Under the pieces are notes generated by a model, which had not been told where the DNA came from, searched no databases, and saw nothing but the letters and a program-made list of their open reading frames with translations. DNA of 36,052 nucleotides from Acidobacteriota bacterium (lineage in GTDB: Bacteria; Acidobacteriota; Vicinamibacteria; Vicinamibacterales; UBA8438): positions 1 to 36,052 of the forward strand of contig VXME01000014.1 of NCBI GenBank assembly GCA_009861545.1, given 5' to 3'. Position numbers and translations under genes: made by a program. Positions 12,124 through 25,144 of this stretch are shown here, one piece after another (position 1 is the stretch's first letter; every line of letters begins with the position of its first letter).

Positions 12124-13146
12124 ATGGCCACCCGCGACCGGTTCGATCGTCCGTTGCGCAGCCTGCGGATCTCCGTCACCGACCGCTGCAACCTGCGTTG
12201 CGAGTACTGCATGCCGGAGGAGGAGTACGTCTGGCTCCCGCGCGGGGACATCCTGACCTTCGAGGAGATCGGCGCGCTCGTCGACGCCTTCACGGACGCC
12301 GGCGCCGACCGCGTCCGCCTGACCGGCGGGGAGCCGCTGTTACGCAAGGACCTGCCTGACCTGATTCAGCGGCTGGCGCGGAAACCCGCCATCCGCGATC
12401 TCGCGCTCACCACCAACGGCATGCTGCTCGCCGACCAGGCGGCCGGCCTCCGCGAAGCAGGCCTTCATCGGCTCACGGTCAGCCTGGACACGTTGCGCGC
12501 CGACCGCTTTCGCGAGCTGACCCGCTTCGACGGCGTCGCCGCCGTGCAGCGCGGCCTGGAAGCGGCGCGGGAGGCGGGCTTCACGGACCTGAAGATCGAC
12601 ACCGTGGTCATCCGCGGCGTCAACGACGACGAGCTGGTCGATCTGCTCGCCTACGGCCGGCGGGCGGGCGCGGAAGTGCGGTTCATCGAGTACATGGACG
12701 TCGGCGGGGCCACCCGCTGGTCCGTGCGGGACGTGCTCTCGCGGGCCGAGATGCTGCGGACGATCGCGGACGCGCTCGGACCGGTAACGGCCATCGAGGA
12801 GGTATCGTCCGCTCCGGCCGACCGCTTCCGGCTGCCCGACGGCCAGACATTCGGCATCATCTCGTCGACCACCGAGCCGTTCTGCCGATCCTGCGACCGC
12901 AGCCGACTGACCGCCGACGGTCTCTGGTACCGCTGCCTCTACGCGCGCGAAGGCACCGACCTGCGCGGTCCGCTGCGGGCCGGGATGTCACGCGCGGAAC
13001 TGAGCACGCTGATCGACGAAATCTGGGCCGCCCGCACCGACCGCGGGGCCGAGGTCCGGCTCGCCGCCGGCGACCGCCAGCCGCTGATCCCGATCGAGAC
13101 GCTGCAGAAGGAACCGCACCTGGAGATGCACACGCGGGGCGGGTAG
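12124..13146 (+). CDS. moaA: GTP 3',8-cyclase MoaA (molybdenum cofactor)
   Basis: This 340-aa radical SAM enzyme catalyses the first step of molybdopterin synthesis with MoaC. The N-terminal SAM cluster motif is C-x3-C-x2-C (CNLRCEYC), and the second cluster's three cysteines are in CRSCDRSRLTADGLWYRC near the C-terminus. The protein ends in Gly-Gly, the conserved MoaA tail needed for activity. LTGGEPLLRKD and LTTNGMLL are standard radical SAM strand motifs. An AAGGG sits a few bases before the ATG. No other moa gene is in the window, so the pathway genes are dispersed. It is convergent with hsdM, with 55 bases between them. Confidence 0.97.
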   Translation: MATRDRFDRPLRSLRISVTDRCNLRCEYCMPEEEYVWLPRGDILTFEEIGALVDAFTDAGADRVRLTGGEPLLRKDLPDLIQRLARKPAIRDLALTTNGMLLADQAAGLREAGLHRLTVSLDTLRADRFRELTRFDGVAAVQRGLEAAREAGFTDLKIDTVVIRGVNDDELVDLLAYGRRAGAEVRFIEYMDVGGATRWSVRDVLSRAEMLRTIADALGPVTAIEEVSSAPADRFRLPDGQTFGIISSTTEPFCRSCDRSRLTADGLWYRCLYAREGTDLRGPLRAGMSRAELSTLIDEIWAARTDRGAEVRLAAGDRQPLIPIETLQKEPHLEMHTRGG

Positions 13147-13201: not shown

Positions 13202-14716
13202 TCAATCGACCTGCCCGGCGCGTTCCTCCAGGTCAGCCAGGATTTCCTCCATCTGGCCGAGCGCGGAACGCAGATCGTCGGCGATCTCGCGGGCCAGCAC
13301 GTGCGGTTCGGGCAGGTCGGCGGCATCCTCCAGACTCTCGTCGCGCAGCCAGAACAGGTCGAGGCTCACCTTGTCGCGGTTGACGATCTCGTCGTAGGCA
13401 AAGGGCCGCCAGCGACCCTCCGGGCTCTGTTCCGACCAAGTCGCCTTCCGCGTGTGGCGGGCGCCCGGGCGGTAGCACGCGACGAACTCGTCGAGATCCG
13501 CGCGGGTCATGCGGCGGGTCTTCAGCGTGAAGTGCTTGTTCGTGCGCAGGTCGTAGACCCATACCGTCCGGGTCCAGGGCTCCTTCGCGCCCGGCTTCCG
13601 GTCGAAGAAGAGCACGTTGGCCTTGACGCCCTGTGCGTAGAAGATGCCCGTCGGCAAGCGCAGCAGGGTGTGCACCTCGCACTCGCGCAGCAAGTTGCGG
13701 CGCACGGTCTCGCCGGCGCCGCCTTCGAACAGCACGTTGTCCGGCACGACCACCGCAGCCCGGCCGTGGATCGTCAGCAGCGACTTGACGTGCTGCACGA
13801 AGTTGAGCTGCTTGTTCGAGGTGGTGGTCCAGAAGTCCGGACGGTTGTAGGTGAGCGACTGCCGGCCGGTCTCCCCCTCCGCGTTCACGACCGTGATCGA
13901 CGACTTCTTGCCGAAGGGCGGGTTGGTGATGACGACGTCCGCCAGCGCGGCCGGCGCGTCGCGCAGCGCGTCGTCGGTCGTGATCGGGGGCTCGCGCCGG
14001 TCGCCGCCGTCGGGGCCGATGCCGTGCAGGTAGAGGTTCATGCCGCACAGCCGCGCGACGTTGGGGACCAACTCCACGCCGCGCAGCGCTTCGAAGCGGA
14101 GATGCCGCTTCTGGTCGCGGTCCAGGTCGCCGCTGCCCTTGAGATACTCGTGGGCAGCGAGCAGGAAGCCGCCCGTCCCGCAAGCCGGATCGACGACGAG
14201 CTCGCCGGGCCGGGGATTCACGCACTCGACCATCGCCTGGATGACCGCGCGCGGCGTGAAGTACTGCCCAGCGCCCCCCTTGACGTCCTGAGCGTTCTTC
14301 TCCAGCAGGCCCTCGTAGGCGTCCCCCTTCACGTCAGCGGCCATCGCCGACCAGTCCTCGCGATCGATCAGCTCGACGATAAGGCGGCGCAGCTTGGCCG
14401 GATCCTGGATCCGGTTCTGCGCCTTCTCGAAGATCAGCCCGAGCATCCCACCGCGCGTGCCGAGGGCGCGCAACGTTTCGCGGTAGTGTCGATCCAGCTC
14501 GGCCCCCTCCATCGTCGGTGAGGCGAGGTTCTCCCAGCGGTAGCCGGCCGGGATCGGCTGTCCGTCGCCGGTGAGCCGCTCGCGCTCATCGGCCATCTTT
14601 AGGAAGAGCAGAAAGGTGAGCTGCTCCAGGTAGTCCTGGTAGGAGAGCCCGTCGTCGCGCAGGACGTTGCAGTACGACCAGAGCTTCTGGACGATGCGAT
14701 TGGCGGCGTCGCTCAT
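13202..14716 (-). CDS. hsdM: Type I restriction-modification system, methyltransferase subunit HsdM
   Basis: This 504-aa N6-adenine methyltransferase subunit would modify host DNA as part of an HsdM2-HsdS complex. The N-terminal HsdM domain (IVQKLWSYCNVLRDDGLSY) is followed by motif I for SAM binding (VDPACGTGGFLLAA) and catalytic motif IV NPPF (DVVITNPPFGKKS). Length is normal and the frame is intact. It is separated from its hsdS and hsdR partners by about 6.1 kb of oppositely oriented genes, which is unusual for a type I operon. The start region is only 37 bases from the divergent hicA start, so both must share a very short promoter region. Confidence 0.96.
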   Translation of the reverse strand: MSDAANRIVQKLWSYCNVLRDDGLSYQDYLEQLTFLLFLKMADERERLTGDGQPIPAGYRWENLASPTMEGAELDRHYRETLRALGTRGGMLGLIFEKAQNRIQDPAKLRRLIVELIDREDWSAMAADVKGDAYEGLLEKNAQDVKGGAGQYFTPRAVIQAMVECVNPRPGELVVDPACGTGGFLLAAHEYLKGSGDLDRDQKRHLRFEALRGVELVPNVARLCGMNLYLHGIGPDGGDRREPPITTDDALRDAPAALADVVITNPPFGKKSSITVVNAEGETGRQSLTYNRPDFWTTTSNKQLNFVQHVKSLLTIHGRAAVVVPDNVLFEGGAGETVRRNLLRECEVHTLLRLPTGIFYAQGVKANVLFFDRKPGAKEPWTRTVWVYDLRTNKHFTLKTRRMTRADLDEFVACYRPGARHTRKATWSEQSPEGRWRPFAYDEIVNRDKVSLDLFWLRDESLEDAADLPEPHVLAREIADDLRSALGQMEEILADLEERAGQVD

Positions 14717-15994: not shown

Positions 15995-16024
15995 TTGACA
16001 TTGTTAGCGATGTTGGCATAGATT
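15995..16024 (+). promoter_or_regulatory. Sigma70-type promoter before the four-gene QueC-like operon
   Basis: A perfect TTGACA (15995-16000) is separated by 18 bases from TAGATT (16019-16024). The local sequence is AT-richer than its surroundings. It lies 22 bases upstream of the TTG start of the first gene and would drive the run from 16047 to 19781. Confidence 0.55.
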
Positions 16025-16046
16025 CCTGACAACAAAGGCGGGCAGC

Positions 16047-16619
16047 TTGAGCGACGGACCCCACAGGAGCCTGAACATGCGGCGCCGCTGGAAGCGGCTC
16101 GCGGAGCGCGCAGCCAACATCGCGTTCGACGACAGGGAGACCAGCGACGCATTGGCCGCGGCACTCCAGGGCGACTGGGACGTCGAAGTTCCCGAGAACT
16201 TCGTCGGGCACGTTCGCGATGCCCTCGACGATCACCAAGGCGATCTCTTCGGCACGTCGGTGACCGAGAAGCTCGAAGCACTCCGAGGTGAAGCCGCGGG
16301 TCGTCCGCTGGCCGGCGCGGTCCTGGACTGCGCGACGCAGGCGGCGGCCCAAGGGCGCCGAGGCGAAGAAGCACTTGCGAAGGCAGCCGCCGACGCGCTT
16401 CTGGAGCGCGCCGCGAGCGGCCGGCGCCAAGTAGAGGAGCATTGGCTGCGGGCATCCCGGGCTCGGAACGCCAAGGGCGTGAGAAACCGCATCGACGACG
16501 CCATTGCGGCATCCGACATGAATGACATAGCGCGGCGTTGCATTGGACGCGCCGACCGAGGGGCGTCGCAGACGCCACGCAGGAAGACTGGAATCAACGA
16601 CGGTGTGTCGTTGTCGTGA
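16047..16619 (+). CDS. Uncharacterised 190-aa protein upstream of the QueC-like gene
   Basis: I do not recognise this protein. The sequence is predicted to be mainly helical and charged, with an Arg-rich N-terminus (SLNMRRRWKRLAERA) and a long Ala/Arg/Glu-rich central part. It has no membrane segment, no signal peptide and no catalytic motif that I can see. The start is TTG at 16047 with AAAGG eight bases upstream; an ATG at 16077 is the alternative. The stop codon is 13 bases before the QueC-like gene, so the two are probably co-transcribed. Possible roles are a partner, substrate or regulator of the QueC-like enzyme (inference from position alone). Its Met-Ser-Asp-Gly N-terminus does not expose a glycine at position 2, unlike the protein partner of QueC-like enzymes in Qat systems as I recall them. 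Confidence 0.7.
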   Translation: MSDGPHRSLNMRRRWKRLAERAANIAFDDRETSDALAAALQGDWDVEVPENFVGHVRDALDDHQGDLFGTSVTEKLEALRGEAAGRPLAGAVLDCATQAAAQGRRGEEALAKAAADALLERAASGRRQVEEHWLRASRARNAKGVRNRIDDAIAASDMNDIARRCIGRADRGASQTPRRKTGINDGVSLS

Positions 16620-16632
16620 AATTGAGTACCCC

Positions 16633-18006
16633 ATGACCTCTCTCGTTCCCGAACGCCGCGTCGACGTTGTGGAGGAAGGAAGATCCGCCGGAAGAAGTCG
16701 GATCCGGTGCGGGATTGACGAACACCTGCAGTTCGACACTGAAGGCATCGAGACGTACTGCCTGGCCGGCTGGAACGCAACGGTATACGACGCGTTCGTC
16801 GTCGGCGCCGCCGTTCAGTTCTGCGACCATACGACGCGGCGCCCATCGGCCGGCTGGCGTCGTGACATTGCGCTCCGCGTTCCCGTTCATGATCCCCACC
16901 ACTGGCGGTCCACGGCGGTTTCCGAGGCGCTGCATGATGCGTTGTCGTTCCTGACCGGTGATCGGTGGCGTATCGATTTCGTTCGGCGAACAAAACACTT
17001 TGTGCCCGAGCGGCAGCAGCGCTTCGACCTCCCGCGTTCCTGTGTCGTGATGCCGTTCAGCGACGGTCTCGACTCGTACCTGATGGCGGGCCTGCTTCAG
17101 CGGGAGCATGGTGACGCGTTGGTCCGGGTCCGACTCGGAGCAAAGGCTTCCCGAGGGAAACGAGCCCGAACCTCACCGCCTCGCGCCTTCGCCTCGATGC
17201 CGTGGCGGGTGTCGTGCGGCAGGTCTGGATCGGTTGAAACGAGTGCCCGGTCACGCGGGTTCCGATTCGCACTGCTCAGCGGCATCGCCGCGTTTCTCTG
17301 CAAGAGCCGAAGAATCGTTCTGCCGGAGAGCGGCCAGGGCGCCCTGGGGCCGTCGCTGATTCCGGTTGGCCAAGCTCATGCAGACGTCCGGAATCACCCG
17401 CTGTTTATGACCAGGATGGAGCGTCTCGTACGGGCGTTGTTCGGTCACGAGGTTCACTACGAGTTTCCGCAGCTCTGGCGAACGAAGGGTCAGACCCTGG
17501 CGGCGTTCATCGAGTCGCGCCCCGACGATGCGGACTGGCTGGGCACGCGCTCATGCTGGCAAGGTGCACGACAGGTGTCGGTCTCCGGCAGTCTCCGCCA
17601 ATGCGGGATCTGCGCTGCATGCCTACTCCGACGCATGAGCGTACACGCAGCAGGGGGACGCGAGGATCCGGCAATCTACGTGTGGGAACGCCTGGGCGCC
17701 ACTCGTTTCGAGGACGGCGCCGCCGAGGCATTTACGAATCGAAGGCCCAAGGGGGCGCTTCACGAGTACGCGATTGCTGGCGTCCTGCATCTCGACCATC
17801 TGGCCAACCTGCATCGGGCACCGGCAGGCGCGGCCGTCATCGCGAGGCAGGCCTTCCTCCTGAGCAGGCCGCTCGGCCTGGACGAGCAGCAAACGAAGAA
17901 GAGGCTCACGGACATGCTCTGGCAACATGAGGACGAATGGTGCGGCTTCGTCGATTCGTTGGGGCCGCGTTCGTTCGTCGCGCAGTGGACTGCGCAAGGA
18001 CAGTGA
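16633..18006 (+). CDS. QueC-like PP-loop ATPase (7-cyano-7-deazaguanine synthase homologue) of defence-island type
   Basis: This 457-aa protein has a PP-loop S143-D-G-L-D-S148 in VVMPFSDGLDSYLMAGLL, corresponding to SGGxDS of QueC. A zinc site has C324-x2-C327-x2-C330 (CGICAAC), with a candidate fourth ligand C308. True QueC enzymes make preQ0 and are about 230 aa. This one has an extra N-terminal domain of about 130 residues and a longer C-terminus, like the QueC homologues found in phage-defence systems (QatC, Cap9 of type IV CBASS). The motif SRGFRFALLSGIAAFL follows the PP-loop domain. No other queuosine gene (queD, queE, folE) is nearby, arguing against a tRNA-modification role. The ATG at 16633 is preferred over an upstream TTG. 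One base separates its stop from the XRE-ImmA gene. Confidence 0.82.
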   Translation: MTSLVPERRVDVVEEGRSAGRSRIRCGIDEHLQFDTEGIETYCLAGWNATVYDAFVVGAAVQFCDHTTRRPSAGWRRDIALRVPVHDPHHWRSTAVSEALHDALSFLTGDRWRIDFVRRTKHFVPERQQRFDLPRSCVVMPFSDGLDSYLMAGLLQREHGDALVRVRLGAKASRGKRARTSPPRAFASMPWRVSCGRSGSVETSARSRGFRFALLSGIAAFLCKSRRIVLPESGQGALGPSLIPVGQAHADVRNHPLFMTRMERLVRALFGHEVHYEFPQLWRTKGQTLAAFIESRPDDADWLGTRSCWQGARQVSVSGSLRQCGICAACLLRRMSVHAAGGREDPAIYVWERLGATRFEDGAAEAFTNRRPKGALHEYAIAGVLHLDHLANLHRAPAGAAVIARQAFLLSRPLGLDEQQTKKRLTDMLWQHEDEWCGFVDSLGPRSFVAQWTAQGQ

Positions 18007-18007
18007 C

Positions 18008-19180
18008 ATGGCGCCGGACAGTATCGATGCGATCGACGTCGGCGCCCGCCTGCGGGGGGCGCGTGAAGCGGCGGGGCTGACGCAGACCGACGCCGCGGCC
18101 GACCTCCGCGTCGCGCGGACGACCTTGGTCGCCATGGAGCAGGGCCGCCGCCGCGTGCGGACCGAGGAGCTCCAACATCTGGCGCGTCTCTACGGCACGT
18201 CGGTCAATGCCGTACTGCGTCGCGAAGCGGTGCACGTCGATCTCGTGCCGCGTTTTCGCAAGCTCTCGAGCGCCAACGACGAGTCGGCGGAGCGGGCGGC
18301 ACGCCTGTTGACGGACCTCGTGCGCGCCGAAGTCGAGCTCGAGAACCTGCTCGGCGTCACGCGCACGCGGAACTATCCGCCGGCGAGACCGTTGCTGCCC
18401 GGCGACGTGCGCCTGCAGGCCGAGAACGACGCCACCGAACTCCGGCACTGGCTCGGATTGGGGCTGGCCCCGGTCCGCGACGTCATGAGCCTCCTGGAAC
18501 TCGACCTCGGCGTGCGCCTCTACGTCCGGCCTCTCGACAGCCGGGTGTCCGGGCTGTTCGCATACGACGACGGCGTGGGCGCGTGCATCCTGCTGAACGC
18601 CAAGCATCCGCGGGAACGGCAGGCCCAGACCGGCGTTCACGAACTCGGACACCTGACGTCCCGGCGGCAGACGCCGGACGTTTGTCGTTTCGACCGGCAG
18701 GACGATTCGCGCGAGGAACGCTACGCCAACGCGTTCGGGCGCGGATTCCTGACGCCCGCGCGAACCGTGACGGCCAAGTTCCAGGACCTGACCGCGGGCG
18801 CACCCCGCTTCACGCGACGCCACGTCATCCTGCTGGCGCACGCGTTCGGGGTGTCACGTGAGGCGATAGTCCGCCGCCTGGAGGAACTCTACCTCGTCAA
18901 GCGGGGTACCTGGGACTGGTTCGAGGCCAATGGCGGCATCACCGACGGGCAAGCGCGTGAAGTTCTCGGTGAATCGGCGGCCCAGGGCAACCGCGACGCC
19001 GGGCGGCCCGTGACCTTTCGCCTCGGACTGCTCGCCGCCGAGGCTCACCGGCAGGAGCTGCTGAGCGAAGGGCAGCTCGCGCGGTTGCTCCGCCTAGATC
19101 GCGTCGAGTTGCGCGAGGTGCTGGACGCCGCGAACGTTGACGGAAACGACACGGATGACCTTCCAAAGCTGCCTGGATAA
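18008..19180 (+). CDS. XRE-family HTH regulator fused to ImmA/IrrE metalloprotease
   Basis: This 390-aa protein has an N-terminal XRE helix-turn-helix (about residues 8-65, with LTQTDAAADLRVARTTLVAM) and a C-terminal ImmA/IrrE-type zinc metalloprotease domain. The catalytic H211-E-L-G-H215 is present, and E-x-x-A-N-x-F (EERYANAFG) follows at the place of the third zinc ligand. Proteins of this type bind DNA and, in characterised relatives, cleave a repressor after a stress signal. Start at 18008 because it lies one base after the previous stop codon and gives the HTH directly. An additional ~120 residues after the protease domain form a helical tail. It overlaps the start of the PIN-domain gene by 26 bases. 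It is the likely regulator or antitoxin of that neighbour (inference). Confidence 0.88.
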   Translation: MAPDSIDAIDVGARLRGAREAAGLTQTDAAADLRVARTTLVAMEQGRRRVRTEELQHLARLYGTSVNAVLRREAVHVDLVPRFRKLSSANDESAERAARLLTDLVRAEVELENLLGVTRTRNYPPARPLLPGDVRLQAENDATELRHWLGLGLAPVRDVMSLLELDLGVRLYVRPLDSRVSGLFAYDDGVGACILLNAKHPRERQAQTGVHELGHLTSRRQTPDVCRFDRQDDSREERYANAFGRGFLTPARTVTAKFQDLTAGAPRFTRRHVILLAHAFGVSREAIVRRLEELYLVKRGTWDWFEANGGITDGQAREVLGESAAQGNRDAGRPVTFRLGLLAAEAHRQELLSEGQLARLLRLDRVELREVLDAANVDGNDTDDLPKLPG

Positions 19181-19781
19181 TCGCACGGCCCCAGTCGTCG
19201 CCGATACGAGCGTCGTCATCAACCTGAACGCTACCGGTTGCGCGGAAACGATACTGCGCGCCCTGCCCAACCGCTGTGTCGTCGTGGAGCAGGTCTCGCT
19301 GGAGCTTCAAGTCGGTCGCCGGACCGGCCGCCCGGATGCTGACGCCCTTGCGGTGCTGATCCGCGAGAGCCTCATCGAGCATGCCCAACTCGAAGACGTG
19401 GGTCTGGTCCATTTCACCGACCTCGTCACCGGATCTGCAGCCGAGACCCTCGATGACGGCGAAGCAGCAACCATCGCCTGCGCCATCGAACGGGGCGCTG
19501 TCGCCCTCGTCGACGAGCGCAAAGCCAATCGGATCTGCACGGAACGCTTCCCAGGCCTCGGCATCGGGTGTACGGTAGACGTGCTCGCTCAGCGACACGT
19601 TCGGGGCGCGCTCGGCGGCGGTCTCGCCGATGCCGTGTTCAGCGCTCTGGATCGTGGTCGCATGCGGGTGCCCGACCACCATGGGCAGTGGGTCCTGGGT
19701 CTCATCGGCAAGGAACGGGCTGCAGGATGCCGTTCACTGCCGAAGCGGTTTCGTGTGAACAGTCCGCCGAATCCAAAATGA
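19155..19781 (+). CDS. PIN-domain ribonuclease-like protein
   Basis: This 208-aa PIN-fold protein would be a metal-dependent RNase. Acidic active-site residues are visible: Asp in VVADTSVVIN, Asp/Glu in LDDGEAATIACA, and Asp in ALVDERKANR. The arrangement resembles COG2405-type PIN proteins rather than the shorter VapC. The C-terminal 60 residues (RGALGGGLADAVFSALDRGR onwards) are a helical extension. The ATG at 19155 lies inside the end of the XRE-ImmA gene; a TTG at 19137 is an alternative. Pairs of XRE-ImmA with PIN proteins are known as putative toxin-antitoxin modules. Here the pair is the downstream half of a four-gene run that begins at 16047. Confidence 0.8.
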   Translation: MTFQSCLDNRTAPVVADTSVVINLNATGCAETILRALPNRCVVVEQVSLELQVGRRTGRPDADALAVLIRESLIEHAQLEDVGLVHFTDLVTGSAAETLDDGEAATIACAIERGAVALVDERKANRICTERFPGLGIGCTVDVLAQRHVRGALGGGLADAVFSALDRGRMRVPDHHGQWVLGLIGKERAAGCRSLPKRFRVNSPPNPK

Positions 19782-20013: not shown

Positions 20014-20807
20014 ATGTCAACGAGGGACGCCGTCCGGAGGGTGCAACGTCACCGAGAAGCCAAAGAGCACTTGGCTGAGATCTACAACAGACGGGAGAGG
20101 GTCATCGTGATCCACTATTCGTGCGAGAGTTTCTACGACCGTCGGGTAGAAACCTCGCCGAGAATTACATCTATAGCAGTCCGCAACCTGGCGACCGCCC
20201 AAACAGAGTCTTTCTCGATTCATCAACTTGCTGAACGCGAGGGGAAACTCTATGACATGAAGGCCCACTACGACGAACTTGAGAGAACGAGATACTGAAG
20301 GAGTTCTTCGAGTACGCGAAGGGCCGTCTCGACTATACTTGGCTACATTGGAACATGCGCGACAGCAACTATGGGTTTGCCGCGCTGGAGCATCGGTTCC
20401 AAGTGCACGGTGGACAACCTGCCGAAATCCCGGACGTGTGCCGGCGCGATCTGTCGCGGTTGCTGTTGGAACTCTACGGTGTCAACTATATCGGCCATCC
20501 ACGACTTGAGAGCCTTGTCAGGAAGAACGACATTACTGACCGTGATTTTCTTAACGGCGAAAGCGAGGCGAAGGCATTCATAGACGGTCGGTACGTGGAC
20601 CTGCATCGCTCGACGCTCCGCAAGGTCGACATCATATCTGATATAGCCAATCGGGCGGCAGACGGTACGCTCAAGACCGACGCGAGTCCGACTGAAGTCT
20701 GCGGCAGCTATCTTGCATTCGCCGTAGCGAAGGCCAAGGAGCACTGGGTGATCTCGCTGCTAGGCATTCTCGGGGCAATCGCGAGTGTCGTGAGTTTTTT
20801 TCGGTAG
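20014..20807 (+). pseudogene. Frameshifted gene for a ~263-aa protein with a C-terminal membrane segment
   Basis: Two consecutive open frames (20014-20298 and the one ending at 20807) belong to one protein. The first half ends ...HYDELE, and the second half resumes as NEILKEFFEYAKGRLDYTWL in another frame. The junction is GAGAGA at 20281-20286; removing one GA dinucleotide restores a continuous 263-aa frame. The family is unknown to me. Visible features are a conserved-looking N-terminal segment (IVIHYSCESFYDRRVETSP), a central WLHWNMRDSNYGFAALEHRF, and a C-terminal hydrophobic helix (WVISLLGILGAIASVVSFF) ending the protein. A GAGGAG ribosome-binding site precedes the start. The shift may be decay, phase variation at a GA repeat, or an assembly error. 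Confidence 0.7.
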
Positions 20808-20822
20808 TCCTGCGGAACATGT

Positions 20823-22279
20823 TCAAGCATCATTCGGATTTGCGAGCACGCCGCCGAAGGCGCCGTCAAGCACGGCCTGATGTAGTGCCGCTGTGCGAGT
20901 CTTGGTCCCAGCTATTTCGGCAACCATGGCCCGTTCGCTGTGAAACACCTTTTCAACCATATTCCTTATGCGAACCTGTTCCGCCAAAGGCGGCACCTGC
21001 AACACACATGCCGCCACATCCACTTGGTTGACCTTGTATATTCCCGCCGTTGTCTTGGCCTTGCGTTCAATCTGATCACGAGTATCCCGAGAATTCCACA
21101 GCGCCACAAAGAACCGCCGATCTATTCTGTCGCAAAGACGCACGCGAATCAAGGTGTCGGGAAACGCAACGAAATCAGGATGGTCGGACACAATTGCTCC
21201 CAGTCCGACCAAATGGATGGAACCGTTTCCACGCGACACAAGAATGTCGTTCTGACGAACAAGAAATGGCTCGGCTTCCGACGCACTCCAAGCACCAATC
21301 TTGAACTCGCTTAGATCTACGAGGCCGTTCCGTAGCGATGTCAACCGAAGGACCGGAATGCCGTGTTCCGCAGTCTTGACCGACCGCCCATTCACGAGCC
21401 GTTCGGACAGGATCTGATCGACCGTTGCCCAGCACCACCCTTCCGCGAGCGATGGCAGCGTGGCAGTGTCCGGTTCGGCCGGCTCCTTGTACCTCGCCTT
21501 CCATTTGTCGGTTGTCGGCACCTTCCCCGCCGCCTTCATCCTCGCCAGCTCGCCGTCCTCCCACCGCCGACGTCGTTCAGCAAGAATCCGCTCCAGGAGG
21601 ACGGAAGCAGGCTCGTAGTCGCGACCTTCAGCGCGGGCGAGTTCGGCCTCGGTCGGCACGAGTCGCCCCTCGACGGCGGCCTTCAAGATCGACGCGCGGT
21701 ACCGCTTCAGGTTCCGCCGCACTCGCTCCAGCGTTGCGGTGACGTCATCGAGACGCGTAAAGTACGAGTCGATGGTCTCGGCGAGTCGCTTCTGATCGTG
21801 TGGTGGAGGAACGGGCAGCGTCTGCGCTTCGAGGAATTGCTCCGGGACGCGCAACTGGCCGGCCGTGCCCTTCATCTTCGATCGCGCGGCAGCGCGAAAG
21901 TCGTCCCGGAGCAGGTAGTACGCCAACAGGTCGGGCCGAATGGCGGCGGACGGGCGGAGCACGTGGAACTCCGTGGAGCCGGCGCCGACGCCGTTGTGGA
22001 GACCCTTGCTACCGCCAGCTTGCCGTTCTCCATGCAGGGCGTGATCTTCGCGAAGAGGACGTCACCTTCCTGGAATCGCTTGTAGCCCTTCCTGACCTCA
22101 CGCCACGGCCGGGTTTCACTCGTGTCGATGCCCTCCGCCATCACCTGGACAGCGGCCATCGGAACGAACGAAACGGGAGTGTCGTCGTCGGGCGGGACCT
22201 CCGGGTTGGGAGGGTTGATCTCCACGACTTCGGACAGTCGCGCTTCGGTCCAGCCCGGCGGCAGGCGCTTCCTGCTCAC
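20823..22279 (-). pseudogene. hsdS: Type I restriction-modification specificity subunit HsdS, frameshifted
   Basis: HsdS determines the recognition sequence through two target-recognition domains. The first open frame (from 22279) starts MSRKRLPPGWTEARLSEVVEI and runs to ENGKLAVA. The correct frame then continues as HNGVGAGSTEFHVLRP to the end at 20823. One base is missing near 22003-22007, in a short C run (G run on the coding strand), so the intact protein would be about 485 aa. The conserved central region RAEGRDYEPASVLLERILAE and a second recognition domain (GWCWATVDQIL...) are complete. Its GTG start overlaps the hsdR stop codon (GTGA), showing it belongs to the same operon. Without full-length HsdS neither modification nor restriction by this complex is expected, unless the shift is an assembly error. 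Confidence 0.85.
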
Positions 22280-25144
22280 GCCGCCAGTACCCCGTTCAGC
22301 TCATCCAGCAGCGGTGCGAGCCCGTCGCCGAAGATCCGCGTCGCGCGACCGAGGCCGCCCTCTTCCGCGAACGGCGCGTAGTCGAGATCCTCCACCGTCA
22401 TCTCCACGCTGGCCGCGATGTGGTCGCGGATCATCTCCAGCCAGCGAACCTGCTCGGTCGTGAAGTCGCGGCCTGCGGTGCGCTGCCGTGCGAGCCACTG
22501 GTCGAAACGTCCCCGCACGCGCTCGCCGAACGGCGCCAGCTCGTCGTCCCGGTCCATCGCGAAGCGCACCAGAGAGACGAGATCGGTGAGCAGCCGCTGC
22601 GCCGACGCGCCCCGGACCCGGTCCCTGTCCAGCGTCTCGTAGGCGCGCCAGAGCTTCTCGGGCGTTCCAGGCGCGGGGCGGCGCCTTGATTTCGTCGGCC
22701 AGCGTCTTGAGGTCGCTGAAGCGGAGACGCTTCGCATACGGCATCCCGTAGAAGCACTGGAGGGCGTCGATCTCGTCCTTGTTGTCCGCGATGAACCGCT
22801 CGAACGAGTCGACCAGCGACTTCGCCTTCTGCTTCGCCTCCTCGCTCGCCCCCGCCTCGATCAACTCGTCCACGGTGATGTCGTCGATGAGCTGCTCCAG
22901 CTTACGCTTGATGTCCTGCAGAAGGTGGCGGAGCTTGGGTCTGGTGGAGATCGGCGCGGCGGCCTGCTTGAGGAGCGTCGTCGCGGCCTGCTGCACTTGT
23001 TGATCGGTCGGCTCGTCACCGGCGGGCACATCGAACATCGAACGCGCCTTCGTGACCTGACGATCCGGATCGAGCCCGTCGACGATGGCGTGGCTGATGG
23101 CCCCAATGCTGGCGCCGCCGGACACTTCGGCGATGCGCTCGCGCTCCTCCGGCCCACACTGTCGATCGAGCCGCGCGAGCCGGCCAGCGAGCGACGACAG
23201 CATGGCCGGATCGGTCCCGCCCATGGCGACGTGCTCGAGCAGGGCCTTGAAGGAGACGGCCTTCTTCCGCTCCAGCGGCTGGGTGTCGGCGAGCGGGACG
23301 TCGGACACCCCGACGCAGTCGACGATGACGAAGTGCGTCTTGGCCCGGGCGTCGGGCGTCACCGCCTGCAGCTCGCGCGCGTCGATGACGCGAACGCCGC
23401 GGCCCTTCATCTGCTCGAAGAGCACGCGGCTCTTGACCGCCCGCATGAACATGACGATCTCGATCGGCCTGATGTCGGCGCCGGTGCTGATCATGTCCAC
23501 CGTGACGGCGATGCGCGGCTCGAAGCTGTTGCGGAACGCCTGGATCAGGTCGCGCGGCTTGGCGGCGGTCACCTTGTAGGTGATCTTCTGGCAGAAATCG
23601 TTTCCGCGGCCGAACTCGTCGCGGACGATCTCGACGATGTCCTCGGCGTGGCTGTCGTCCTTGGCGAAGACGAGCGTCTTCGGCACCTCCGTCCGGCCGG
23701 GGAAGATGTCGGTGAAGAGACGGTCGCGGAACGCGCGGACGATGGTGCGGATCTGGTCGCGCGCGACCACGCGGCGGTCGAGCTCGGCGGCGTCGTAGGT
23801 GATGTCCTCGTCAGGCCGCTCCCACCGCCGCTGACGTGTCTGGCGGTCGCGGTACTCGACCATCGTGTCGGGCGCCGCCTCGATGGTGGCGCCCTGCCCG
23901 GTGATCCGAGTGCGGATGTCGTAGACCTCGAAGTCGACGTTGACGCCGTCGGCCACCGCGCGCTCGTGGTCGTACTCCATGACCAGGTTCTTGTTGAAGA
24001 ACCCGAAGGTTTGCTTGGCCGGCGTCGCGGTGAGGCCGACGAGGAAGGCGTCGAAGTACTCCAGCACCTGCCGCCACACGGTGTAGATGGAGCGGTGGCA
24101 TTCGTCAATGACGATGACGTCGAAGTACTCCGGCGGGTAGGCCGGGTTGTAGACGACCGGCAGCGGTTCACCGAGCGCGCCGGCGCCCGGTTCGAACTGC
24201 GACGCCGCTTCGTCCTCCGCCGCGAAATCGGGCTCTCCCTTGAGCATCGAGTAGAGACGCTGGATCGTGGTGATGACCACCTTGCTGGCCGCGCCGATGG
24301 TGTTCGACGTCAGGCGCTGGACGGTGTAAAGCTCGGTGAACTTCCGGTGATCGTCCGGCGTGCGGAAGCCCTGGAACTCCTTCTCCGCCTGCTCGCCGAG
24401 GTTGCTCCTGTCGACGAGGAACAGCACTCGCCGCGCGCCGGCGTAGCGGATGAGCCGGTAGACGGACGTGATGGCGAAGATCGTCTTGCCGGACCCGGTC
24501 GCCATCTGGACCAGCGACCGCGGATGGTTGCGCTTGAGTGACCATTCGACGTTTCCCACGGCCTCGACCTGGACCGGATAGAGGAAGTCCTGCTCCAGCT
24601 CCGGCAACGTCTGAATACGGCCGCGCAACGACGACGGACACGTCTCGTCGGCCGCTGTGTGGAGGCCTCCACCTTCAATGTGAAGGCGTCTTACCCAGGC
24701 GTCGAGGGTCTCCGCCCGAACCCATTCCGCCAGTGTTTCCGGCCGGTGAATGTGCGGCAGGTGCGAGATGCGACGGCTCTTCGGATCCGGGTCCAGACCG
24801 TTGATGAATCTCGTGTCGACGCCGGTGCTGACGTACAGGAACGGGAGCGGTCTGACCGGCGGATTCAGCACCGCCGGCAGCCCCGTCGCATACTTGTCGG
24901 CCTGCAACTCGACGCTGGACAGGGTGTATCCGACCGGCTTCGCTTCGAGCACGCCGACGGCCTGCCCGTCGACGAACAGCATGTAGTCGGCGAATCCGTG
25001 GCTCGGCGCCATCTTGAACTCGCGCACGGCGACCCCGAGCCCGGCCGCTAGGTTCATCCCGTCGCGGTCCTGGACAATCCAGCCCGCGTCGGCAAGGGCC
25101 GTGTCGATTTCCTCGCGGGCCTGTTGTTCCGGCGTCAGCGGCAT
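22276..25144 (-). pseudogene. hsdR: Type I restriction enzyme subunit HsdR, frameshifted near the C-terminus
   Basis: HsdR is the DNA translocase/endonuclease subunit. Visible in the first ~820 residues: the PD-(D/E)xK nuclease (FADYMLFVDGQAVGVLEAKP), Walker A (MATGSGKTIFAIT), the DECH helicase motif (VIVIDECHRSIYTVW), and GLTATP. The frame breaks near 22665, where an extra base in an AA pair turns A-W-T-P-E-K-L-W into a different frame. The correct C-terminal ~135 residues (TPEKLWRAYETLDRDRVRG to DELNGVLAA) continue in the other frame and end at a TGA that overlaps the hsdS start by four bases. The restored length would be about 955 aa. The truncation removes the C-terminal region that in relatives contacts the HsdM/HsdS core. 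Confidence 0.88.

Follow-up and report, generated by a model that had tools for sequence, protein, structure and literature searches.

Background

A cassette of four genes, which we call GenB, QatC-like, XRE-ImmA and PIN, is described here from a stretch of DNA of an Acidobacteriota bacterium (NCBI GenBank assembly GCA_009861545.1, contig VXME01000014.1, positions 1 to 36,052 of the forward strand). This stretch, analysed at its full length of 36,052 nucleotides, is referred to as the window. The closest described systems are qatABCD, type IV CBASS, RosmerTA and the PIN/UPF0175 pairs. According to the available parts of a 2026 structural paper (PMC13279940), QatB of qatABCD carries an essential N-terminal MGTS motif, which was modelled in the active site of QatC, and true QatC has two threonines in place of the Tyr and Asp of QueC. 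The same parts report that QatBC alone protects against some phages. The activity of QatC could not be reconstituted by the authors, and they state as open questions what QatC attaches to QatB and by which route phage arrest is reached. The genes qatA and qatD adjoin only about one third of QatC-cluster genes (PMC13329287); ImmA and PIN are not mentioned in the accessible parts of that paper.

In type IV CBASS, Cap9 joins 7-carboxy-7-deazaguanine to Gly2 of its partner, as stated in PMC13279940, and PMC13329287 adds that Cap9 has the YPDC signature of QueC. RosmerTA comprises ImmA-protease antitoxins with diverse toxins; its description reports toxin-antitoxin as well as anti-phage behaviour and notes PIN-like partners (PMC10440598). 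Fusions of XRE with COG2856, accompanied by PIN or RelE, were predicted in 2009 to make up a three-component toxin-antitoxin system, and that study also presents UPF0175 (COG2886) as a family of PIN antitoxins (PMC2701414).

The component parts of the cassette are already known. For the combined unit we found no description: no paper in the open-licence PubMed Central literature, supplements excluded, brings together QatC with ImmA or "PIN domain", although a description under other gene names would escape such a search. Comparing sequences, we interpret the cassette with moderate confidence as a mobile four-gene operon of the order GenB - QatC-like - XRE-ImmA - PIN, whose most likely function is growth arrest against phages. 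In it, an XRE-ImmA/PIN switch would be combined with a Qat-like module for N-terminal conjugation, and we infer that the two are coupled.

Organization and conservation of the cassette

Comparison of related loci shows that the four genes are closely packed and conserved as a unit, with a single conserved promoter-like site and a palindromic operator in front of them. All of them lie on the forward (+) strand. GenB (the name is ours; 16047..16619) has a TTG start and encodes a predicted all-helical protein of 190 amino acids (aa) with the N-terminus (M)SDGPHRSL, a candidate counterpart of QatB. The next gene (16633..18006) encodes a QatC/QueC-like, presumably ATP-dependent enzyme with the P-loop SDGLDS and the zinc motif SCW...CGICAACLLRR; its length of 457 aa counts from the chosen ATG, upstream of which there are further in-frame starts. 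A single base separates its stop codon from the ATG of XRE-ImmA (18008..19180; 390 aa), the presumed repressor and antitoxin. This protein consists of an XRE/HTH domain (aa 11-67), an M78/ImmA protease domain (aa 166-292), both delimited by the Pfam matches HTH and Peptidase_M78, and a UPF0175-like helical tail (aa 341-383). The last gene, coding for the PIN-domain protein and presumed ribonuclease (RNase) toxin, occupies 19155..19781 from its ATG, and an alternative in-frame TTG is found at 19137.

A preliminary description of this DNA dealt with the last two genes alone and saw in them the layout of a toxin-antitoxin pair. The overlap of 26 bases that it reported is real, as follows from the coordinates of the open reading frames (ORFs) 18008-19180 and 19155-19781. 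The HELGH zinc motif, which it had called intact, is indeed present in the window, and H211, E212 and H215 are found in 56/56 aligned relatives. The toxin-antitoxin-like layout holds insofar as the overlapping pair is conserved and the protease site is intact, but the larger unit was overlooked: XRE-ImmA and PIN are the last two of the four genes in a cassette that begins at 16047.

We compared 81 loci, namely the window and the best 80 of 213 relatives obtained from one genome collection by a scan with an alignment of seven relatives. They are close relatives by construction (56-86% identity). Their record titles name Acidobacteria, Alphaproteobacteria, Binatia, Chloroflexota, Gemmatimonadetes and others, at least five phyla. 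All four genes were detected in 72 of the 81 loci; three of the 72 have one gene distributed over two reading frames (XRE-ImmA in L043, QatC in L062 and L064). The inspection of homologous pairs that had been proposed at the outset gave PIN behind XRE-ImmA in 78 of 80 loci, and the idea of a non-conserved pair is thereby rejected. Two loci are without a full PIN: L075 stops at a contig edge and L051 retains about 26 residues of the PIN start. The exact 26-base overlap is available through an in-frame ATG in 61 of 79 PINs, and the frame relative to XRE-ImmA is identical in all 79. Because both the length of the overlap and the frame are conserved, we rejected a chance overlap of unrelated ORFs. 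One step upstream, QatC and XRE-ImmA overlap by 4 nucleotides in 48/74 loci.

Among ORFs of at least 110 aa within 6.5 kb, every further neighbour is confined to at most 8 of the 81 loci. Within these limits the QatA ATPase and the QatD TatD nuclease are not among the recurrent neighbours; the order of the B and C genes is the same as in qatABCD, but it is XRE-ImmA and PIN that are linked to them instead. CD-NTase is likewise neither among the four genes nor added by any recurrent gene within 6.5 kb in the 81 loci, which sets the cassette apart from type IV CBASS.

The first two genes occur and disappear together. GenB was found by profile search in 74/81 loci and QatC co-occurs in those 74; the same 7 loci are without GenB and without intact QatC, and a whole GenB without QatC was seen in 0 of 81. 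One of the seven (L089) is cut by its contig. Of the remaining six, L035, L040 and L102 have neither QatC nor the body of GenB, L042 retains the GenB start, and L047 and L101 retain the GenB start together with a QatC fragment. PIN is retained in all six. Short ORFs or fusions that begin like GenB (MSDGP, VSDGP or MPDGD) are placed between the operator and XRE-ImmA at L042:7892, L102:7879, L047:7769, L101:7483, L003:1348 and, in a distant relative, L199:4865; none is present in this position in L035, L040 and L198. Such remnants may be deletion scars or functional leaders.

Linkage was also followed in the reverse direction, by searching 385 genomes of one class and 396 genomes of the phylum of the window with the GenB profile. 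GenB is rare, being present in 3/385 and 3/396 genomes when the seed genome is counted each time. Both new genomes obtained by this GenB-first search (L189, L190) contain GenB, QatC, XRE-ImmA and PIN in this order. The same four-gene order is found in the phylum relatives L192 and L193, already met through XRE-ImmA, and a divergent GenB locus (L191) reads GenB, QatC, XRE-ImmA and then the contig end.

Promoter-like site and palindromic operator

Upstream of GenB, the window contains the palindrome TGACATTGTTA (15996..16006, + strand), one mismatch away from TGACAnTGTCA, which overlaps a TTGACA -35-like box (15995-16000) and is a probable XRE site for the whole operon. A second half-site, TGACA, follows at 16027..16031 (+), 20 bp past the palindrome. 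For the window alone, one such palindrome match is unremarkable (mean 0.34 expected). Across the family, 70 of 74 loci have TGACAnTGTCA within 120 bp upstream of GenB, 62 of them as an exact copy and 8 with one mismatch; it again overlaps the TTGACA -35-like box, and in 52 of these 70 the half-site lies 19-21 bp downstream. In random 120-bp stretches of the same loci the palindrome occurred 14 times in 3631 when the operator region was left out and 28 times in 3692 when it was not; shuffled upstream regions gave 22/3700. With at most one mismatch it was not found in L073, L082, L084 and L096 of the 74 loci, and L073 has it minus the central base.

The palindrome is kept in 6/6 cassettes without intact GenB and QatC (exact in L035, L040, L042 and L102, one mismatch in L047 and L101). 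In distant relatives it is exact in L171, L191, L197 and L199 and has one mismatch in L193, L198 and L003; two, three and four mismatches separate it from the sites in L200, L201 and L202, respectively. Because the operator survives the loss of GenB and QatC and recurs in distant XRE-ImmA relatives, the XRE domain is its likely binder, and repression of the whole four-gene operon by this domain is the most likely consequence.

These loci can also be read in another way. XRE-ImmA and PIN might be a self-sufficient RosmerTA-like module and GenB-QatC an independent Qat-like defence that shares its promoter; the pair would then be an addiction module by which the operon is maintained in the genome. 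Existence of pairs without GenB-QatC (L035, L040, L200-L202) speaks for such an arrangement, as do the protection conferred by QatBC alone in qatABCD (PMC13279940, in part) and the double toxin-antitoxin and anti-phage role given for RosmerTA pairs in PMC10440598. Nevertheless, the four genes share a single operator, located upstream of GenB, which relatives of the same XRE keep, and gene order and overlaps are nearly fixed. The joint loss of the GenB body and QatC with the pair retained is compatible both with this addiction module and with the coupled operon that we favour. Altogether we regard the addiction module as possible but rather doubtful.

GenB and the QatC-like enzyme

The coupled operon requires a substrate and an enzyme in its first half. 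In the AlphaFold2 model GenB has ten helices (pLDDT 89.9, ends less certain). As in qatABCD, a homologue of QatC that has the P-loop and the zinc motif is preceded by a small protein that is entirely helical and has a flexible but conserved N-terminus, and as in type IV CBASS, the neighbour of a QueC-family enzyme has a short N-terminal motif with hardly any variation. Among 75 aligned GenB sequences, residue 2 is Ser in all but one, which has Thr, and D3, G4 and P5 are present in all; the alignment was chosen by a regular expression requiring S/T, G and P, and the single sequence missed by it (L034) reads SDGPL. The mean frequency of the top residue is 0.90 at positions 2-9 as opposed to 0.44 at positions 10-170 (67 aligned sequences). 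Conservation of this kind would be expected if the N-terminus is read by an enzyme. The motifs themselves differ: GenB starts with MSDGP where QatB has MGTS, and it has Ser2 where the CBASS partner has Gly2.

The second protein matches the NCBIfam model of QatC with E 3.2e-35, but under the curated cut-off (121.8 vs 280 bits), and QatC structures in the PDB with E 2.6e-19 (9vlk) and 2.3e-15 (9zee). Its family aligns with 30 canonical QueC sequences with an hhalign probability of 98.6. The P-loop residues are conserved in 74/74 and the zinc cysteines in 73/74 members. A loop of the form Y[PE]DYRNHP (Y in 66/74, D in 74/74) is placed by hhalign on YPDCR of QueC, so that the cassette enzyme aligns with the QueC YPDC signature in the manner of Cap9. 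This loop is unlike that of QatC, which reads STRT in 6/6 QatC proteins adjoining an MGTS-type QatB, and STRH and ASRT in two further QatC-like proteins.

Genes for QueC and for a queuosine-precursor transporter, as well as two PTPS (QueD-type) genes, are present in the genome of the window. A frame of 484 aa in this genome (L115, L207; contig C95) contains a second QueC-like match, and about 170 bp away, on the opposite strand, there is a PTPS (QueD-type) match.

In a distant clade (L171, L191, L197), QatC and XRE-ImmA are preceded by a gene of about 210 aa starting with MPDGD, MPDLD or MPTDG. PIN is also present in L171 and L197, while L191 ends at a contig edge. The QatC loop of this clade, (N/S)SR(G/S/A), is unlike both that of QueC and that of canonical QatC.

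The XRE-ImmA and PIN proteins

In XRE-ImmA, the presumed third zinc ligand E237 is conserved in 55/56 aligned relatives. Its AlphaFold2 model, built with 56 sequences, has a pLDDT of 89.4. The XRE domain matches the DNA-binding domain of ImmR (7t8i; Z 13.0, root-mean-square deviation (rmsd) 1.9, 65 aligned residues), and the protease matches CapP (7t5t; Z 11.6, rmsd 3.5, 165 aligned) and PprI with single-stranded DNA (ssDNA) (8sln; Z 11.3, rmsd 3.9, 169 aligned). CapP cleaves CapH and regulates CBASS in this way. The matches of the model support a protease-repressor role of XRE-ImmA. The protease of PprI is activated by ssDNA, as PMC10904395 reports, which suggests ssDNA as one possible signal for XRE-ImmA. 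The PADLOC model RmrA matches the protein with E 9.3e-22, and as in RosmerTA, where RmrA is accompanied by diverse RmrT, it adjoins a toxin-like gene. Unlike in RosmerTA and in the operons predicted in 2009, the XRE-ImmA protein of the cassette has a UPF0175-like tail, and the pair forms in this clade the second half of a GenB-QatC operon.

The preliminary description had supposed that the helical tail after the protease domain may be the toxin-binding part. The confident predicted model has three helices there (337-348, 354-360 and 365-380), and the tail resembles the PIN-antitoxin family UPF0175; the isolated tail from the window scores 26.8 bits, under Pfam's curated cut-off of 27.9. UPF0175 is matched with E 0.01 or better by 18/26 tails, taken from relatives picked because PIN follows, and the tail profile aligns with 25 UPF0175 proteins with an hhalign probability of 92.8. 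On these values we call the tail UPF0175-like only.

PIN was dropped as a member of a Pfam family, as there is no Pfam match even at E 10. It matches PDC-S70 in PADLOC (E 5e-11), and its profile aligns with 17 UPF0175-adjacent PINs with an hhalign probability of 98.8 over 143 columns. D17, E50, D101 and E103 are conserved in 79/79 and D120 in 76/79 homologues. We presume that PIN is an RNase toxin. Both proteins of the pair thereby have profiles that align with members of PIN/UPF0175 systems, with the difference that the antitoxin-like segment of the cassette, itself under Pfam's cut-off, is the C-terminus of an XRE-protease protein.

The same data bear on an explanation without any antitoxin. 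XRE-ImmA could be a regulator only, a CapH/CapP-like repressor and protease in one chain, and PIN an effector activated by GenB-QatC instead of a restrained toxin. The strong operator evidence, the CapP- and PprI-like fold and the low score of the tail would all suit such a scheme. What makes it improbable in our opinion is that the tail is similar to UPF0175 proteins and PIN to the PINs found next to them, and that PIN is kept in every one of the six cassettes without intact GenB and QatC.

Behind other XRE-M78 proteins lies a gene that, judged by eye, is possibly TIR-like (L210) or MazF-like (L223). This suggests toxin swapping on the XRE-M78 type of antitoxin.

Proposed mechanism

In our preferred model of a coupled growth-arrest operon, the XRE domain very probably binds the operator and represses its own operon, and XRE-ImmA would act as an antitoxin of the RosmerTA kind, its UPF0175-like tail restraining the PIN nuclease. 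The homology of the QatC-like enzyme to Cap9 and QatC suggests that it would use ATP to attach 7-deazaguanine or a related carboxylate to Ser2 of GenB after removal of the Met. The following steps are speculative. GenB-QatC might represent the sensing half of the system. Its state in infection, or ssDNA as in the case of PprI, might turn on the ImmA protease. The protease could then cleave its own or a neighbouring chain, upon which the operon would be derepressed, the PIN RNase freed and growth stopped.

Several observations weigh against this model. There is no detectable homology between GenB and QatB: hhalign against 6 QatB sequences gave a probability of 0.4 and E 0.17. The 15 aligned columns place DGP..W of GenB on GP..W in the tail of QatB, and similar spacing is found in 4/6 QatB; the correspondence is suggestive but not significant. 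PADLOC returned no QatB hit among 67 GenB proteins, PADLOC itself not having been checked for a QatB model, and QatB is absent from the Foldseek and VIA-align matches listed for GenB, from a library that was not checked for QatBC entries. GenB also lacks Gly2, which is required by QatB and by the CD-NTase of CBASS. The loop of the QatC-like enzyme in the window is HADVRNHP, that is His-Ala-Asp-Val instead of the consensus Tyr-[Pro/Glu]-Asp-Tyr, and the window copy may therefore differ from its family. The register of Y/D on T278/T280 of QatC comes from sequence alignment and may be about three residues off. As for the second half, the tail stays under the Pfam cut-off, and the association of the tail with PIN is weak: among 33 XRE-M78 loci (20 newly fetched and 13 earlier), UPF0175 was matched at E 0.05 in 4 of 13 PIN-adjacent and 2 of 20 other proteins. 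In this PIN group of 13, L020 and L227 were assigned by eye, and L217, L221 and L222 matched PIN profiles at E 3e-4 to 3e-3. Finally, the already mentioned XRE-ImmA/PIN pairs without GenB-QatC mean that the two halves are separable.

The identity of GenB as QatB, tried by profile comparison, PADLOC and fold searches, was not established by sequence or by fold.

In its most far-reaching form, our model would define a new class of immune operons, in which an enzyme of the QueC family conjugates 7-deazaguanine to the N-terminal serine of a small adaptor, and it depends on the state of the adaptor whether an antitoxin-fused ImmA protease destroys itself and releases a PIN ribonuclease. We put this forward tentatively, as a proposal that may well turn out to be wrong. 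If it is true, conjugation of a nucleobase to a protein would be the trigger of a toxin-antitoxin switch.

We know of no established trigger of ImmA/PIN operons. GenB-QatC would provide a defined input to an ImmA/PIN pair, the kind of operon already predicted in 2009 (PMC2701414). A reaction of the QatC type and its consequence may also be easier to observe in the lineage of the cassette, because it has the QueC-type Tyr/Asp alignment, a short N-terminus that looks like a substrate and hardly varies, and a toxin-like partner that is fixed.

Mobility and genomic surroundings

Relatives of XRE-ImmA are present in 73 plasmid records, 30 of them predicted conjugative; 16 of the 73 have an identity of 60-80%, and in 38 the match extends over 80% of the query. 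The four-gene order was read in two plasmid loci, whose annotations are, gene by gene, hypothetical protein, 7-cyano-7-deazaguanine synthase, XRE family regulator, and hypothetical or DNA-binding protein, so that no name of a system is attached to the unit in these loci. For L205 (Methylocystis rosea), the synthase as annotated falls short of the QatC-like family in length. In viral contigs, the operator, searched as a long exact pattern, had no match, and relatives of XRE-ImmA were found at 8 loci.

In the window, the cassette on the + strand sits between genes of a type I restriction-modification system on the opposite strand, with hsdM (13202-14716, -) on one side and hsdS (20823-21962, -) and hsdR (22301-25144, -) on the other. 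Relatives similar to hsdM are near the cassette also in L034 and L109. Behind PIN (3'), the ORFs 20014-20298 and 20355-20807 (both +) appear by eye to be a single gene divided between two frames. Of these ORFs, the longer (20355-20807) belongs to no recurrent neighbour cluster listed, and the shorter one is under the 110-aa limit. Upstream of the restriction-modification genes lies a gene for MoaA, the GTP 3',8-cyclase (12124-13146, +; NCBIfam E 1e-104), whose weaker match to viperin in PADLOC is probably due to the shared radical-SAM fold.

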